Part shown: piece after piece, positions 54,611 to 60,308 of the stretch | Layout of the letters: each line of letters opens with the position of its first letter | How positions within the stretch are numbered: the stretch's first letter is position 1 | Source: Sorangium aterium | Lineage (GTDB): Bacteria > Myxococcota_A > Polyangia > Polyangiales > Polyangiaceae | DNA length: 64,000 nucleotides | Direction: 5' to 3' | Assembly: GCF_028368935.1 (NCBI RefSeq) | Contig: NZ_JAQNDK010000006.1 | Location: 463,001 to 527,000, forward strand | Translations under genes and position numbers: made by a program | Notes under the pieces: model-generated | The model's database searches: none | Seen by the model: the letters and a program-made list of their open reading frames with translations, nothing else | Told to the model about the DNA's origin: nothing

Positions 54611-54910
54611 GCGGGAGTGGGGTCGACGTACGTGGAAGTCGCGGTGGCCAAATTTGATGCACCACCTCACCTACCCGCAGGAGAGGCGTGAGGACGGCTG
54701 GCTGAACAGTGGCTCTGTGTCCGTCCCGGCGCTAGGGCGCGACGACGGGATGCCGGCGGCCCATTGCATTCCTGGGACCTGCAACCCGCTCTCGCGGCTC
54801 CCTCGAAAAAATGCGAACGCTTTCGCGGGCCTCCCCACGGCGGGCGAACCGTGTTACGCTCCCAAGCGCGAAGTTTTCAGGATGCTTGTGGGGGAAGGAG
54901 CCCTGTGGAG
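54611..54910. other. gene-free stretch after cydB
   Basis: 300 bases with no supported gene. The right half turns AT-richer (CTCGAAAAAATGCGAACGC) before the surface-lipoprotein gene, where its promoter should lie. No clear terminator for cydAB and no cydX-sized frame with a helix were found. Confidence 0.45.
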
Positions 54911-56755
54911 ATGGCGAACATGGCTAGATACCGTCGACACGCGATTGTGGGGTTACTTGCAGCGACAGCCGGTGTGACGGGCTCGTTCGCCGCGTGCTCG
55001 GACTCGTACCGTCACGGGCTCACCGGCTCCGGCTCGGGCCCCACCGGGACCGGCGGCAGCAGCGGCGGCACCGGCGGCGCGGGCGGCGAGGGGGGGAGCA
55101 CGGGGACGTTCGGGGAGGGGGGGCGATGCGATCCGATCTGCTCCAACGATCTGAAGAAGATCCTCAGCTGCAATGGGGAGACGCTGGACACGTGCGGGCC
55201 GGAAGAGGGGTGCGTCAACGCGGAATGCATACCGGACCCATGCGAAGCGGCGAGGAGGTCGAAGAGTTCGTACGGATGTGACTATTGGGCGCTGAAGACG
55301 GCAATGGTGAACAACGGAAGCGGAACATGTTTCGCCGCTTTCGTGGCGAACACATGGCAAATGCCCGTCAAAATTAATGTGCAATACCAGGGGAACGAGC
55401 TCACCGACCCTGACTTGCCCTCCGAATTCATCTTTATTCCAGAGACGCAAGGCGCAACGACCACATATCGGCCTTATGTTCCTTCTGAAGGTCTTGGCAT
55501 TGGCAAGGTTGCCGTCTTGTTCCTTGCCAGGAATCCGTTCGGTGGTACCTCGGCTGACGATTGCCCCGACCCTGCCGTGGCAGCAATTCAGGACGAGGCT
55601 GGCGTTCGAGGGACGGGTCGAGGAAGTGCCTTCCATATCTCGACGGACTATCCAGTCGTCGCTTATCAGATGGCTCCGTTCAGTAGCACAGGTGTGGCGC
55701 TCTCGTCGGCGACGCTGCTGCTGCCCACGAGCGCGTGGGACAACAACTACCTGGCAATCAACGCCTATGGATACTCCGGCGCACCTGCGTATGGCTCCCC
55801 ATCCTTGGACATTGTCGCCTATGAGGATGATACCGAGGTAACTATCTTGCCCCGAGCCAAGATAGAGGAAGGGGAGAATGTGGCTGGCTCAGAAGCGAAT
55901 GAGCCCGTTACGTATACTCTCGGTGCGGGCGAATTTTTGCAGCTTACTCAGAAGGATGAGCTGACCGGGAGCCCGATCGCGTCAACGAAGCCTGTGGGGG
56001 TCTTTGGCGGGCATGAATGCATGAAGGTGCCCGACAATGTAAACGATTGCGATTCCGCTCAGCAGCAGATTGCCCCGGTCCGCGCGACGGGTAACGAGTA
56101 TGTGGGCGTTCGTTATCGTGGGCGCAATGGGGACGATGAGGAAGCCCCCCCTTGGCGGATTGTCGGCATGGTCGACGACACGGAGTTGACATGGATTCCG
56201 AGCGCTCCCGAAGGCGCTCCCATGTCGCTCAAGCTTGGGGAAACATATCAGTTTAATGCGCGAGGGCCGTTTACGGTCAAGAGCCAGAGTCCGAATAACC
56301 CGTTCTATCTTGGTGGCTACATGACAGGGGGTGTGCCGTTTCAGAGAGAAGGCGACCCTGAGTGGGTGAACATTGTGCCTCCGAGCCAATTCTTGGATTA
56401 TTACGTGTTCTTCACCGACCCGAACTTTCCAGAGACGAGTCTCGTGGTCGTTCGGACGCCTTCCAAGCGAGATGGTTCGTTTGCCGACGTGGAGCTCGAT
56501 TGCGCCGGGCCGCTCACGGGCTGGGAGGATATCGGTGCGTTCCAGTATACGCGTGTCAATCTCGTCAGCGGGAACTTCGAAGGCTTTGCGGGCTGCTCGA
56601 ATGGACGCCGCGAGATGATTAGTGAGCTTCCGTTCGGTGTTACTGTTTGGGGGTGGGGAGCGATCCAGAACCACCAGTTGGTCTCATATGCCTATCCTGC
56701 GGGGGCAGGCTTTCAGCCAATCAACGATGTTGTTGTGCCCCCTTCCGTTCAGTAA
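54911..56755 (+). CDS. IgGFc-binding-domain-like surface lipoprotein
   Basis: 614 residues from ATG 54911; GTG 54905 with AAGGAG four bases before it is an alternative start. The signal peptide ends in GSFAAC (lipobox). A Gly/Ser linker and a cysteine-rich piece (CDPICSNDLKKILSCNGETL) follow. The large remaining domain shows patterns of the IgGFc-binding N-terminal family: STDYPVVAYQMAPFSSTGVA, then LLLPTSAWDNNYLAINAY, LDIVAYEDDTEVTILPRAKI and YTLGAGEFLQLTQKDELTGS. PVGVFGGHECMKVPDN is also present. In bacteria this fold appears on secreted or surface adhesin-like proteins. The DNA from about 55,250 onward is much less GC-rich than its surroundings. Confidence 0.82.
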   Translation: MANMARYRRHAIVGLLAATAGVTGSFAACSDSYRHGLTGSGSGPTGTGGSSGGTGGAGGEGGSTGTFGEGGRCDPICSNDLKKILSCNGETLDTCGPEEGCVNAECIPDPCEAARRSKSSYGCDYWALKTAMVNNGSGTCFAAFVANTWQMPVKINVQYQGNELTDPDLPSEFIFIPETQGATTTYRPYVPSEGLGIGKVAVLFLARNPFGGTSADDCPDPAVAAIQDEAGVRGTGRGSAFHISTDYPVVAYQMAPFSSTGVALSSATLLLPTSAWDNNYLAINAYGYSGAPAYGSPSLDIVAYEDDTEVTILPRAKIEEGENVAGSEANEPVTYTLGAGEFLQLTQKDELTGSPIASTKPVGVFGGHECMKVPDNVNDCDSAQQQIAPVRATGNEYVGVRYRGRNGDDEEAPPWRIVGMVDDTELTWIPSAPEGAPMSLKLGETYQFNARGPFTVKSQSPNNPFYLGGYMTGGVPFQREGDPEWVNIVPPSQFLDYYVFFTDPNFPETSLVVVRTPSKRDGSFADVELDCAGPLTGWEDIGAFQYTRVNLVSGNFEGFAGCSNGRREMISELPFGVTVWGWGAIQNHQLVSYAYPAGAGFQPINDVVVPPSVQ

Positions 56756-56939: not shown

Positions 56940-58691
56940 ATGAAGAAGCACCCTGTTGCAGTGATTGTGATCTCGGTCTCGGTTTTCGGATCGTCCCTTA
57001 ACTGCGGCATGATCCTCGGCCTCGATGAGTTCTCCGACGCCGAGAGCGCGGGCGTCGGCGGCTCGACGGCAACGACTGCGGACTCTGGTAGCAGCACGTC
57101 GACAGCAGGGGGCGGCGCAAATCCGAGCCTAGCCCCGACGGTGCCGGTCCCGCGACTTCCCATGAACGGCGCAGATGTTGGCACAATGCGAAAGAGCGGG
57201 TCGCGACGTCCAAGGTTCGCATGGGAAGAGTCGATGGGAATGACGGACCGGCCTGTCGAGTACGAAATCCAGTATGGCACCGACCCGACGATGGCTGACG
57301 TTGTAACGATCACCACAGCGCGAGCCGAGTACCAGATCGATTCAGATCTGCAAGGTGAGCTGCTTCCGCCTGTGGGAAGGCGTTATTATTGGCGGGTGCG
57401 CGCCTGTTCACAGGGGGAATGCTCTTCGTTCTCTCCTGTGTGGTGGTTCAATGTCGGTCGGGTAAGATGTGATTTTAACGCGGACGGGTATGATGATGTG
57501 GCCGTAGGCGCTGTCTCGGTTACCAGGAATGACATCAATGCTGTGTACTTCTACTATGGATCCGCCGGAGTAGAGTTCGATGCGGCATCCAACGGTACAA
57601 AGACAAGGCCGTCTGACTCGGTTGCCGGCTTTGGTACGGCGCTTTCTTGCGCGGGCGATGTCGACGGTGACGGCTTCGCTGACCTCCTGGTAGGGGCGCC
57701 CTTCAGCGACCACTTGACCGGTGACGCATGGGTCTATTTTAGCGACGGCGGCGATATTTTCTCGGGTGTGCCATGGGAGCTTCGACATGGTTTGGAAGAG
57801 GGGGTCGAGTTTGGCGGAGCCCTGTCCGCGGCTGGAGACGTCGATGGGGATGGATTTGACGATATCATCGTAGGAGAGTTGGGAGGACCTTATGTATACC
57901 TCTATCGCGGGGACTCCTCAGAGCGTATTGCGGATCCGATATCGCTCTCTCTTGATGTGAATGCGTCGAGCGTGGTTGCAGCGGTGGCATCGGCAGGCGA
58001 CGTGAATGGCGACGGTTTTTCCGATGTGATGGTATCGTTTCAGCCTCGTGACTCTCTGGGGCATCAAGCGGTGGGGTTATACTTCGGGGGGACAGGGCTT
58101 GGGTTCGATGCAGTCCCAGACATCGAGCTCGCCGCGCCCATGGAGGACTCGAATTTCGGTTCTGCGATCGCTGGGGCAGGCGATGTGAATGGAGATGGAT
58201 TCGGGGATGTGATCGTCGGGTCACATGGTCTCAGTCGTAGCTATATATACATCGGCGGGCCAGATGGATTGAAACCTGCACCGTACTTGACGCTCGAGGG
58301 AAAGGCGCGCACAAATTTCGGTCTGGCTGTCGCGTCCGCCGGGGATATGAATGGGGACGGGTTTGGCGACGTAGCTGTCGGTACGAGCGATTACAGCAAT
58401 GACCCTGGGACGGTATACATCTACATGGGCGGTTCGGGGACGATGCTGAATGGCAGTGCGGACGTGGCGTTTCATAGACCGGCCAATGGTGATGGATTTG
58501 GACCGGTCCTAGGTTCTTCGGGGGATGTGAATGGCGATGGCTTCTCGGATCTCACGATCGCTGCGCCTCAGGATGACGCCGTTTTTGTGTTCTTCGGCAA
58601 GTCGAAGGCGGAGAACCCTGATCCAGAGGACGGCTCTGTAATACAGCCGTTGATTGATTTGGTATTCGGTTCGGCGGTAGCAAGGCGATAG
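56940..58691 (+). CDS. FG-GAP/VCBS repeat lipoprotein
   Basis: 583 residues. The signal peptide ends in SSLNC, an atypical lipobox, giving the mature start CGMILGLDEFSDAE. The FG-GAP region (about residues 175-560) has seven DxDGDG-type calcium loops (GDVDGDGFADLL, GDVDGDGFDDII, GDVNGDGFSDVM, GDVNGDGFGDVI, GDMNGDGFGDVA and others). This predicts a seven-blade propeller as in integrin alpha chains. A fibronectin-III-like domain precedes it (about 85-170: VEYEIQYGTDPTMADVVTIT, then YYWRVRACSQGECSSFSPVW). Probably a surface-exposed adhesin. Codon use is unlike the flanks. Confidence 0.88.
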   Translation: MKKHPVAVIVISVSVFGSSLNCGMILGLDEFSDAESAGVGGSTATTADSGSSTSTAGGGANPSLAPTVPVPRLPMNGADVGTMRKSGSRRPRFAWEESMGMTDRPVEYEIQYGTDPTMADVVTITTARAEYQIDSDLQGELLPPVGRRYYWRVRACSQGECSSFSPVWWFNVGRVRCDFNADGYDDVAVGAVSVTRNDINAVYFYYGSAGVEFDAASNGTKTRPSDSVAGFGTALSCAGDVDGDGFADLLVGAPFSDHLTGDAWVYFSDGGDIFSGVPWELRHGLEEGVEFGGALSAAGDVDGDGFDDIIVGELGGPYVYLYRGDSSERIADPISLSLDVNASSVVAAVASAGDVNGDGFSDVMVSFQPRDSLGHQAVGLYFGGTGLGFDAVPDIELAAPMEDSNFGSAIAGAGDVNGDGFGDVIVGSHGLSRSYIYIGGPDGLKPAPYLTLEGKARTNFGLAVASAGDMNGDGFGDVAVGTSDYSNDPGTVYIYMGGSGTMLNGSADVAFHRPANGDGFGPVLGSSGDVNGDGFSDLTIAAPQDDAVFVFFGKSKAENPDPEDGSVIQPLIDLVFGSAVARR

Positions 58692-59009
58692 CGCAATGCG
58701 CATTATCGAGCACCGGAATCGGTCGGGAGGTACAGCAAATGAGCCACCACGGGCTCATCCTACACGGCCTGCTGCACACGCCCGCGTGTCCAGCTACCCC
58801 CGTCGGCCGACCGCCGCGCACCGTGGATACAGTGGTCCCATCCCACAGCAGTCCTCGCTCCTCGTGGTTCGACGCGCGAGATGTCTAGCGACTTTATGCC
58901 GCGGGCCGATCGGCGTGCGGTGGAACGCCCGTGTCAATCTCTGTCCACCGCTCTCATACGCGGCCGTCGGCGCTGACGTCTGAAGTTTCGGCCTCATGGG
59001 CCGGCTCTG
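58692..59009. other. gene-free stretch holding copy 1 of a direct repeat
   Basis: 318 bases between the FG-GAP gene and the SUMF1-like gene, which face each other. No supported gene. Bases 58814-58941 are the degenerate first copy of a direct repeat whose second copy is at 60374-60514. Confidence 0.6.
58814..58941 (+). repeat. direct repeat copy 1 flanking the SUMF1-like gene
   Basis: Pairs with 60374-60514. Blocks that match: CCGCGCACCGTGGATACAG against CCGCGCGCCCCGGACACAG (15 of 19); the 26-base block 58848-58873 against 60408-60433 (23 of 26); the 26-base block 58916-58941 against 60489-60514 (23 of 26, all three changes C/T). The first two blocks hold exactly the same spacing; a 13-base length difference lies before the last block. 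Confidence 0.75.
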
Positions 59010-60308
59010 TCACTCCGCCTGGATCTTTCTGGCGCAGCGCACGCCCTGGGTCCTGCCTGTGCGATCTTCGCTGTTTCTGAACGTTGTGTCATAGAGCGGG
59101 GCGATGGCATTCCCACCGCGAACCACGTATCTTGCTGCTCCAGAGCAGCCCTGGTTCGAGCAGTCCTCGCACGGCATCGGATAATCGCCGTTGCAATCCA
59201 AGGTCCACTCCGAGACGTTTCCTAGCATATCGGCATGGCCCCACCTCGCATCGCCGGACGGCGAGAACGAGCCGACAGGCAGGAACGCGGCGACGCTGCA
59301 TCCGCTGGAGGAGCCGTCTCCTCGGCACTCATTGGCAGCGAACCCGCGCTCCCTCGAAGCGCCCCACGGATACACCCTCTGCTCGTCACCGCCGGCGGCG
59401 GCGTAGTTCCACTCGGCCTCGGTGGGCAGGTAGCCCCCGTCCCATACGCAGAATGCGAATGCCTCATACCACGTCACGCAATGGATCGGCCGGTGTTCGT
59501 TGGGGCCCGGCTCGGCGGTCCATGTCGGGTAGTACTCACATTCGAGCTGTACTTTGAGCTCCTGGGTGTTCGCCGAGAGCGAGGATGTCCAATCGAATTG
59601 CCACCCGCTATCGGTTACACCGGGGCGCTCCCCGACTCCCAGCGCCGGCGGATCCCTCCGCGTCCCCTTGAGCGCCTCCACGAACGCCCGAAATCGCCCT
59701 ACCGTGACCTCGTATCTGTCGAGCCTGAAGTCGCTGACGGTGGCTGGATAGCTCTCCTCATTGCTTCGGTAGAACGTGCCTCCCGGCACGAGGTCAGCGG
59801 CGCAGCAATCCGCGTCTCCGTCGGGCCCGCAGCTCACTCCCGTGCCAGGCGCGTCGCCGCCCTGGCAGCTGGTCGGGACGCACACGCCGTCGCGGCACCC
59901 CGGGAAGGGCGGCGCGCACGGCGCCTCCTCGACCCACGCGCCCCCTTCGCATCGCCGCGGCTTCTCACCTGCGCACCCGCGCTCGCCCTCGGTGCATGGG
60001 ACACATCGGCCCTTTGCGCAGACTGGCGCCTCTCCACTGCAAGGCCGCTGGGGGATCCACTCCCCATCTGCGCACTGCCGGGGCGTATCGCCGACACAGT
60101 CGCGCTTGCTGTGCTCGCAACCTCCTGCGCCGGAGCTCGAGTCGATGTCGCCACCGGCTCCTTCTCCTCCAGCGCTCGCCCGCGGAGCGTCCTTGAAGTC
60201 GTCGAGCCCGAGCACCAGGCCGCAGCCCGTCATCCCGGCCGCAATCGCCAGCGGAGCCATCCGCGCGCCCGCGGCGTGGCCCGTGCGCCGCCTTTTCACC
60301 GTCGACAT
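59010..60308 (-). CDS. formylglycine-generating-enzyme (SUMF1/FGE-sulfatase) domain lipoprotein
   Basis: 432 residues. The KRRR-rich start leads to a signal peptide ending in GMTGC (lipobox), with mature start CGLVLGLDDFKDAP. A Gly/Ser linker and a cysteine-rich part follow (CVGDTPRQCADGEWIPQRPC, CAPPFPGCRDGVC), like an EGF-type or tail-fibre domain. The SUMF1 domain (about residues 185-430) shows FRLDRYEVTVGRFRAFVEA, then PIHCVTWYEAFAFCVWDGGY, LPTEAEWNYAAAGG, HADMLGNVSEWTLDC and VRGGNAIAP. As an exported lipoprotein it is a surface protein of the SUMF1/C-lectin-like group. It need not make formylglycine, for which two specific cysteines in the late domain are required. The gene is bracketed by direct repeats. 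Confidence 0.88.
   Translation of the reverse strand: MSTVKRRRTGHAAGARMAPLAIAAGMTGCGLVLGLDDFKDAPRASAGGEGAGGDIDSSSGAGGCEHSKRDCVGDTPRQCADGEWIPQRPCSGEAPVCAKGRCVPCTEGERGCAGEKPRRCEGGAWVEEAPCAPPFPGCRDGVCVPTSCQGGDAPGTGVSCGPDGDADCCAADLVPGGTFYRSNEESYPATVSDFRLDRYEVTVGRFRAFVEALKGTRRDPPALGVGERPGVTDSGWQFDWTSSLSANTQELKVQLECEYYPTWTAEPGPNEHRPIHCVTWYEAFAFCVWDGGYLPTEAEWNYAAAGGDEQRVYPWGASRERGFAANECRGDGSSSGCSVAAFLPVGSFSPSGDARWGHADMLGNVSEWTLDCNGDYPMPCEDCSNQGCSGAARYVVRGGNAIAPLYDTTFRNSEDRTGRTQGVRCARKIQAE

Follow-up and report, generated by a model that had tools for sequence, protein, structure and literature searches.

A position-fixed N-terminal tag on diverse lipoproteins of Polyangia as a possible sorting address

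Two adjoining, convergent genes of Sorangium aterium (genome of 13.47 Mb, labelled G000) encode predicted lipoproteins with very similar mature N-termini, and the question is whether this likeness has a meaning. One gene encodes an FG-GAP beta-propeller protein and the other a SUMF1-like protein, and both lie in the window, the 64,000-nucleotide stretch of DNA analysed here. We found that the peptide shared by the two proteins (the tag) recurs in register behind the predicted lipidated Cys of many other proteins in the class Polyangia, where it may act as a sorting address. The relevant features of the window are as follows.

56940..58691, + strand: gene of the FG-GAP beta-propeller lipoprotein, 583 amino acids (open reading frame; Pfam FG-GAP, E 3.5e-39)
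56940..57002, + strand: signal peptide of the FG-GAP protein, MKKHPVAVIVISVSVFGSSLN, with an unusual SLN-C lipobox at its end (translation of the open reading frame)
57003..57044, + strand: post-lipobox tag of the FG-GAP protein, CGMILGLDEFSDAE, Cys codon at 57003-57005 (translation; profile match)
57045..57190 (end approximate), + strand: Gly/Ser/Thr-rich linker of the FG-GAP protein, directly 3' of the tag (translation; linker composition of the tagged set)
59010..60308, - strand: gene of the SUMF1-like (FGE-sulfatase) lipoprotein, 432 amino acids, ATG at 60308, picked for its n-region KRRR (open reading frame; Pfam FGE-sulfatase, E 8.6e-38)
60225..60308, - strand: signal peptide of the SUMF1-like protein, MSTVKRRRTGHAAGARMAPLAIAAGMTG (translation)
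60183..60224, - strand: post-lipobox tag of the SUMF1-like protein, CGLVLGLDDFKDAP, Cys codon at 60224-60222 (translation; profile match)

Translation of the window confirmed both N-termini at the place given in the original prediction, and the Pfam matches bore out its statement that the two proteins carry unrelated domains. Its claim that they share their first 14 mature residues held as a strong likeness but not as identity, since 9 of the 14 residues were identical (8 of the 13 past the Cys), with three of the five differences being conservative. Lipoproteins of the same genome were sampled with a simple lipobox finder on 40 stretches of 20 kb, which yielded 95 candidates, 90 of them outside the window; one was too short and was dropped, leaving 89. 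The finder was crude, in that it relied on filtering by G+C at third codon positions, overlooked the window's own FG-GAP gene and kept some doubtful candidates. Among the 4,005 pairs formed by the 90 candidates, three reached at least 8 of 13 identical post-Cys residues. These three pairs had polar or repetitive N-termini, and one of them was near-identical and probably paralogous.

We searched for the tag with profiles of increasing depth. The first, with the window pair as its two rows, gave two more strong matches and a weaker third in the window genome, and a five-row profile matched in 29 of 39 genomes at E≤1, the window genome counted in. Inspection of 62 matches to the latter mostly showed a signal peptide, the motif C-x-x-x-L-G-L-D-x-F/Y or a variant, a Gly/Ser linker and a further protein; a few were weak or false (e.g., L087, L108, L113 and L115). 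The final profile, A4, had 52 rows with the core C-[GAS]-x-[VIL]-[LF]-G-[LF]-[DE]-[DE]-[FY] past the lipobox. It omits L070, L085, L086, L087, L090, L095, L102, L106, L107, L108, L110, L112, L113, L115, L139 and a second copy of L111, in part because they were near-duplicates and in part because they were weak or false. The original prediction named absence of the signature from the rest of this and related genomes as the outcome that would speak against it; A4 matched the window genome 13 times at E≤0.01, recognisable matches also lying below this threshold, and gave 170 matches at E≤0.001 in 69 of the 285 genomes of the class. A majority of these genomes (54 of 69, with 93 of the 170 matches) were not represented in the profile. 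The five Sorangium genomes that are more complete held 6 to 12 matches each at E≤0.001. In a phylum sample of 237 genomes, class and non-class together, 31 had a match at E≤0.01 and 29 of these were within the class; of the two outside it, one looked real (L193) and the other spurious (L199). The tag is thus nearly restricted to one class within this sample. A scan of the genome collection for GCGL[VI]LGLD returned 14 stretches, seven of which were assigned, all to Polyangiaceae (six Sorangium records and one metagenome-assembled genome). Tagged genes stood in tandem or close by in several relatives (L114, L190, L111; G252:C1:4342277 and 4344964; G391:C823:2661 and 4568).

The shortness of the motif, 8 to 10 residues, would suit coincidence or ordinary lipoprotein composition. 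However, a decoy profile (A7) with the 13 post-Cys columns of A4 permuted and the signal peptide and Cys kept matched in 0 of the 285 class genomes, compared with 69 for A4, which indicates that the order of the residues matters rather than the signal peptide or composition. Strict matches to the tag were likewise absent from the 89 sampled lipoproteins, and the sole loose match, L139 (CADLLGIRD), was itself an FG-GAP protein. Furthermore, 28 of the 32 loci from genomes first met after profile building passed a script that asked for a start codon, a hydrophobic stretch, a small residue at -1, the tag and an open frame. Three of the four failures still had the tag (L189, L311 and L182, which runs into the end of its locus), and the fourth was the spurious-looking L199. 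Because the tag reappears on unrelated domains within the class, aligned to the predicted lipidated Cys, coincidence is untenable, and we regard its probability as negligible.

The anatomy of the tag was examined in 101 distinct N-termini mined with C-x3-[LIVFMA]-G-[LIVFMAY]-[DENG] by a script that also demanded G, A, S, N or T at -1 and a hydrophobic stretch; members found by profile are unfit for measuring the invariance of the tag. The consensus was C1-[GAS]2-x3-[VIL]4-[LF]5-G6-[LF]7-[DE]8-[DE]9-[FY]10-x-D12. Position +2 was G, A or S in 87% and overall G, A, S, T, N or Q, +4 was V, I or L in 94% and +5 was L in 79%, with G at +6 set by the mining pattern. Position +7 was L in 76%, any of L, F, I and V in 95% and Ala in 3%. 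The following part was acidic and partly aromatic, with D at +8 in 91%, E or D at +9 in 78%, F or Y at +10 in 57% and D at +12 in 37%. The commonest residues from +2 to +7 were G/A/S, L/Q/A, V/I/L, L, G and L, and the mean net charge of this part was 0.00. Its mean hydropathy was 1.85, as opposed to -0.74 in the 89 sampled lipoproteins (positions 5 to 8 being partly fixed by the pattern), and the net charge of +8 to +14 was -2.58 versus -0.73 (position 8 being partly fixed by the pattern). The linker that follows, from +15 to +40, consisted of G, A and S to 53%.

The residue at -1 was G, A or S in 100 of the 101 mined N-termini, consistent with predicted processing by signal peptidase II, and it was Gly in 86 of the 101 compared with 43 of the 90 sampled lipoproteins. 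The only Asn at this position was that of the FG-GAP protein of the window, unlike its orthologues L069, L079 and L092, which have Gly, and lipidation of this protein is uncertain. An AlphaFold2 model of the FG-GAP protein alone had a mean predicted local distance difference test score of 31. The same convergent pair, with both proteins tagged, occurs in Sorangium cellulosum So ceGT47 (G003; L069:3803-5080), with an interruption in the SUMF1 frame. For the FG-GAP orthologues L079 and L092, the 6 kb examined at each contained no adjacent SUMF1 match. The upstream neighbour of the FG-GAP gene in the window (54764-56755) encodes a putative lipoprotein (CSDSYRHGLTG...) without the tag.

The tag precedes a variety of proteins. 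BLAST clustering of the downstream parts of 63 proteins, from which L079 had been dropped for want of a Cys match, resulted in 22 groups. The largest had 26 members and was SBBP-like to judge by those scanned. The 22 groups do not equal 22 unrelated families, because some singletons (L058, L069b) are broken relatives of larger groups. Pfam matches at or above the cut-off were obtained for 19 of 42 tagged or loosely tagged proteins, and none for the other 23. They covered nine families with related models counted once, namely FG-GAP, FGE-sulfatase, RCC1, DUF5122, PD40, SBBP, DUF4185, Stig1 and DUF4215, with DUF4185 entering via a single loose tag (L112). We take FG-GAP, RCC1, DUF5122, PD40 and SBBP to be propeller-type repeats, partly on the basis of their Pfam descriptions. 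No NCBIfam model covered the tag in ten tagged proteins scanned (signal peptides were included for the two window proteins, and eight sequences started at the Cys). Two SBBP-type tagged proteins did match the model of LipL53-type SBBP lipoproteins (NF047494; E 1.9e-22 and 6.4e-24), but with 80 to 85 bits against a cut-off of 400, and in the propeller, outside the tag.

These properties bear on the possibility that the tag is a docking peptide, which would bind a specific envelope partner, such as an outer-membrane barrel, near the membrane and build a complex without deciding the location of the protein. The hydrophobic core and the frequent aromatic and acidic residues resemble a binding peptide, the distance from the lipid is constant, and propeller-type or FGE domains are present in a number of tagged proteins. 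However, one partner would have to serve diverse domains and all 6 to 12 matches in each of the five more complete Sorangium genomes, and we consider this explanation rather unlikely, GspN being the one candidate partner that was searched for.

We also collected proteins of the window genome by domain, that is, in a way that does not select on the tag. The genome has 52 FGE-sulfatase (PF03781) matches. Thirty of the 52 loci were read; in nine the frame left the locus before the N-terminus and six had no lipobox. To the 14 lipoproteins recognised by the script we added L247 by hand, as it fell below the hydrophobicity threshold and had a visible lipobox. With G at +6 between hydrophobic residues or Ala as the criterion, 8 of these 15 lipobox-bearing FGE proteins were tagged (L237, L238 of the window, L239, L245, L247, L250, L252 and L254), compared with 1 of the 89 sampled lipoproteins (Fisher p 2e-7; the thresholds for hydrophobicity differed slightly between the two sets). 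For FG-GAP, 10 of 26 loci were read, the rest repeating the same genes, and an in-repeat script match (L267) was set aside; two of the four lipobox-bearing proteins were tagged, L259 (the same as L139) and L261 of the window.

Comparison within 11 groups of related proteins showed a mean identity of 0.65 to 1.00 for positions +5 to +12, which exceeded that of the domain (0.37 to 0.74) in every group, although the tag values are biased upward because the members were found via the tag. Ungapped linkers had 0.07 to 0.71 identity and signal peptides 0.07 to 0.75. The FG-GAP group had an identity of 0.75 for the tag, 0.10 for the linker, 0.07 for the signal peptide and 0.53 for the domain, the orthologue L079, with Glu for Gly6, being excluded. 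A constraint on the DNA or RNA was also considered and is disfavoured, as the synonymous codons of the tag vary; from +5 to +12 their variation was near background, save for an excess of the Leu codon CTC at +5 and +7 that context explains only partly. We favour a constraint at the protein level.

The recurrence of the tag, its fixed register, the unrelated domains behind it, its rarity among sampled lipoproteins and its conservation above linker and signal peptide are all observed. On this basis we propose, with about even confidence, that the tag is an address, fixed in position at the mature N-terminus, that would sort a minority of Polyangia lipoproteins to a surface destination. A sorting or anchoring role had been suggested in the original prediction; the recurrence in fixed register on unrelated domains fits it, and the location itself is what we infer.

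The best reading is that the tag would be analogous, with a different consensus, to the lipoprotein export signal (LES) of Bacteroidota or to the lipoprotein-sorting motif of the type II secretion system (T2SS) with GspN. The LES is a short, position-critical signal right past the acylated Cys of several surface lipoproteins, for which negative charge is important, and it takes the forms K-(D/E)2, Q-A-(D/E)2 or SDDDD near +2 to +6 (PMC5080379). The tag resembles it in being short, immediately post-Cys and present on several lipoproteins; it differs in belonging to another phylum and in having a hydrophobic and on average uncharged part at +2 to +7 around a central Gly6, with acidic residues at +8, +9 and often +12. 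The T2SS/GspN motif is GGG or ND(N/D) at P2'-P4' (PMC12802150), and GspN is encoded in the tag-bearing window genome (TIGR04411; G000:C2:1149639, E 7e-42). Of 38 relatives, the window genome among them, 37 had a GspN match at E≤0.001 and 36 had one over the cut-off. The MYXO-CTERM/myxosortase system handles diverse surface proteins of Myxococcota through a sorting tag that is proposed to become lipid-linked, and in myxobacteria the T2SS carries such proteins (PMC11980579). That tag is C-terminal and combines a Cys motif with a transmembrane helix and a basic end, and a simple pattern of our own found no such end in the 81 complete C-termini of tagged proteins. No earlier description of the tag was found in the literature titles and abstract openings searched, which at this level only included PMC12636315, a paper naming Myxococcota and the lipoprotein pathway, and the strings LGLDDF, LGLDEF, GLDDFED and VLGLDDF occurred in none of the papers covered by a text search, with subscription journals mostly beyond the reach of both.

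Myxococcus xanthus, of the same phylum, likewise has residues near the Cys that are tied to location, with Ala at +7 marking extracellular matrix and Lys at +2 marking inner-membrane lipoproteins (PMC3222651). Post-Cys residues govern Lol avoidance in other bacteria (PMC3222651, PMC12802150), and the tag could accordingly be read as an inner-membrane retention or Lol-avoidance signal that keeps its proteins periplasmic. However, Lys at +2 was absent from the 101 N-termini, and Gly-rich linkers with propeller or FGE domains would seem better suited to the surface. We consider such a role improbable.

Several observations weigh against a sorting address. None of the described rules covers the tag: it lacks the two or more acidic residues within +2 to +6 of the LES (PMC5080379), it has [GAS]-x-[VIL]-[LF]-G-[LF]-D in place of GGG or ND(N/D) (PMC12802150), and its Ala at +7 is rare and its Lys at +2 missing (PMC3222651). 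GspN also occurs in relatives without a tag match (e.g., G028, G029 and G037) and is thus not specific to the tag. In addition, 216 of the 285 class genomes had no A4 match at E≤0.001, and the tag was missing from 7 of the 15 lipobox-bearing FGE proteins (L236, L241, L242, L248, L253, L257 and L258) and from two of the four FG-GAP lipoproteins (L279 and L283). Gly6 is replaced in two relatives of tagged proteins (L079, CGMLLELDEF; L070, CGLLLDLDDF). Finally, the Leu codon was CTC in 60 of 80 cases at +5 and in 54 of 77 at +7, compared with 51 to 57% in matching context, an excess that hints at a common descent of the module.

This codon excess also fits the tag being a hitch-hiking leader, an ancestral signal peptide and N-terminus spread to new domains by duplication and fusion without a sorting role. 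The tandem or side-by-side position of some tagged genes agrees with such a history, as do the related SBBP-type proteins that make up 26 of the 63 clustered ones. However, between proteins of unrelated domain classes the identity was 12% for the signal peptide and 18% for the linker, versus 72% for the tag (172 pairs, the tag figure being inflated by profile selection). The tag also outlasts both flanks within orthologue groups, and its synonymous codons vary. Passive spread is, in our view, an unlikely explanation.

A second, basic signature was found on proteins without the tag. The motif C-x-x-[KE]-[VA]-R-x-F is common to two untagged FGE proteins (L118, G000:C1:1964689; L242, G000:C1:2723188) and one sampled lipoprotein (L159:5365-6432). 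A three-row profile of these gave nine more matches at E≤0.01 in six Sorangium genomes, all nine showing the signature, with examples such as CSTKVRRF, CSPKVRNY, CGQQVRNF and CSPKDRDF. Its form is C-[ST]-x-[KR]-[VA]-R-x-F, on FGE, DUF4215, fibrinogen-C-like and Vgb-like lipoproteins (loci L319-L338; 17 of 30 loci were read, L339 had no such N-terminus and L333 was placed on later reading). Pfam matches over the cut-off in ten of the proteins were FGE-sulfatase (2), Fibrinogen_C (2, limited to about 35 residues), DUF4215, Dicty_CTDC, SSL_N and Ldl_recept_b, with Vgb_lyase and Stig1 below it. Since the two signatures occur on partly the same domain families (FGE and DUF4215 over the cut-off, Vgb-like and Stig1-like more weakly), it is possible, though we hold it only tentatively, that Sorangium and its relatives in Polyangia use an N-terminal zip code in which at least two alternative addresses, one hydrophobic-acidic (CxxVLGLDDFxD) and one basic (CSxKVRxF), are swapped on overlapping families and lead to different envelope destinations or carriers.

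If the tag is a sorting address, tagged lipoproteins would be exported by Sec, acylated by Lgt and then cleaved by LspA. An inner-membrane or periplasmic receptor would read the hydrophobic-then-acidic peptide beside the lipid and divert the protein from its default route through Lol; the external face of the outer membrane would be the likeliest destination. There the Gly/Ala/Ser linker could keep the propeller or lectin-like domain away from the surface. The most plausible candidate for the carrier is the T2SS with GspN, because GspN is encoded in the genome and the T2SS carries MYXO-CTERM proteins in myxobacteria; this is a guess, and we rate it clearly below the address itself and below an even chance.

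The routes by which lipoproteins reach the myxobacterial surface or matrix are poorly understood, those described in the two sources consulted being the C-terminal MYXO-CTERM tag and the single-residue rules of M. xanthus (PMC11980579, PMC3222651). A searchable N-terminal signature on a defined subset of lipoproteins would help to predict, from sequence, some of the surface proteins encoded by the very large genomes of Polyangia, and the tag would offer a compact peptide with which to seek a sorting receptor.

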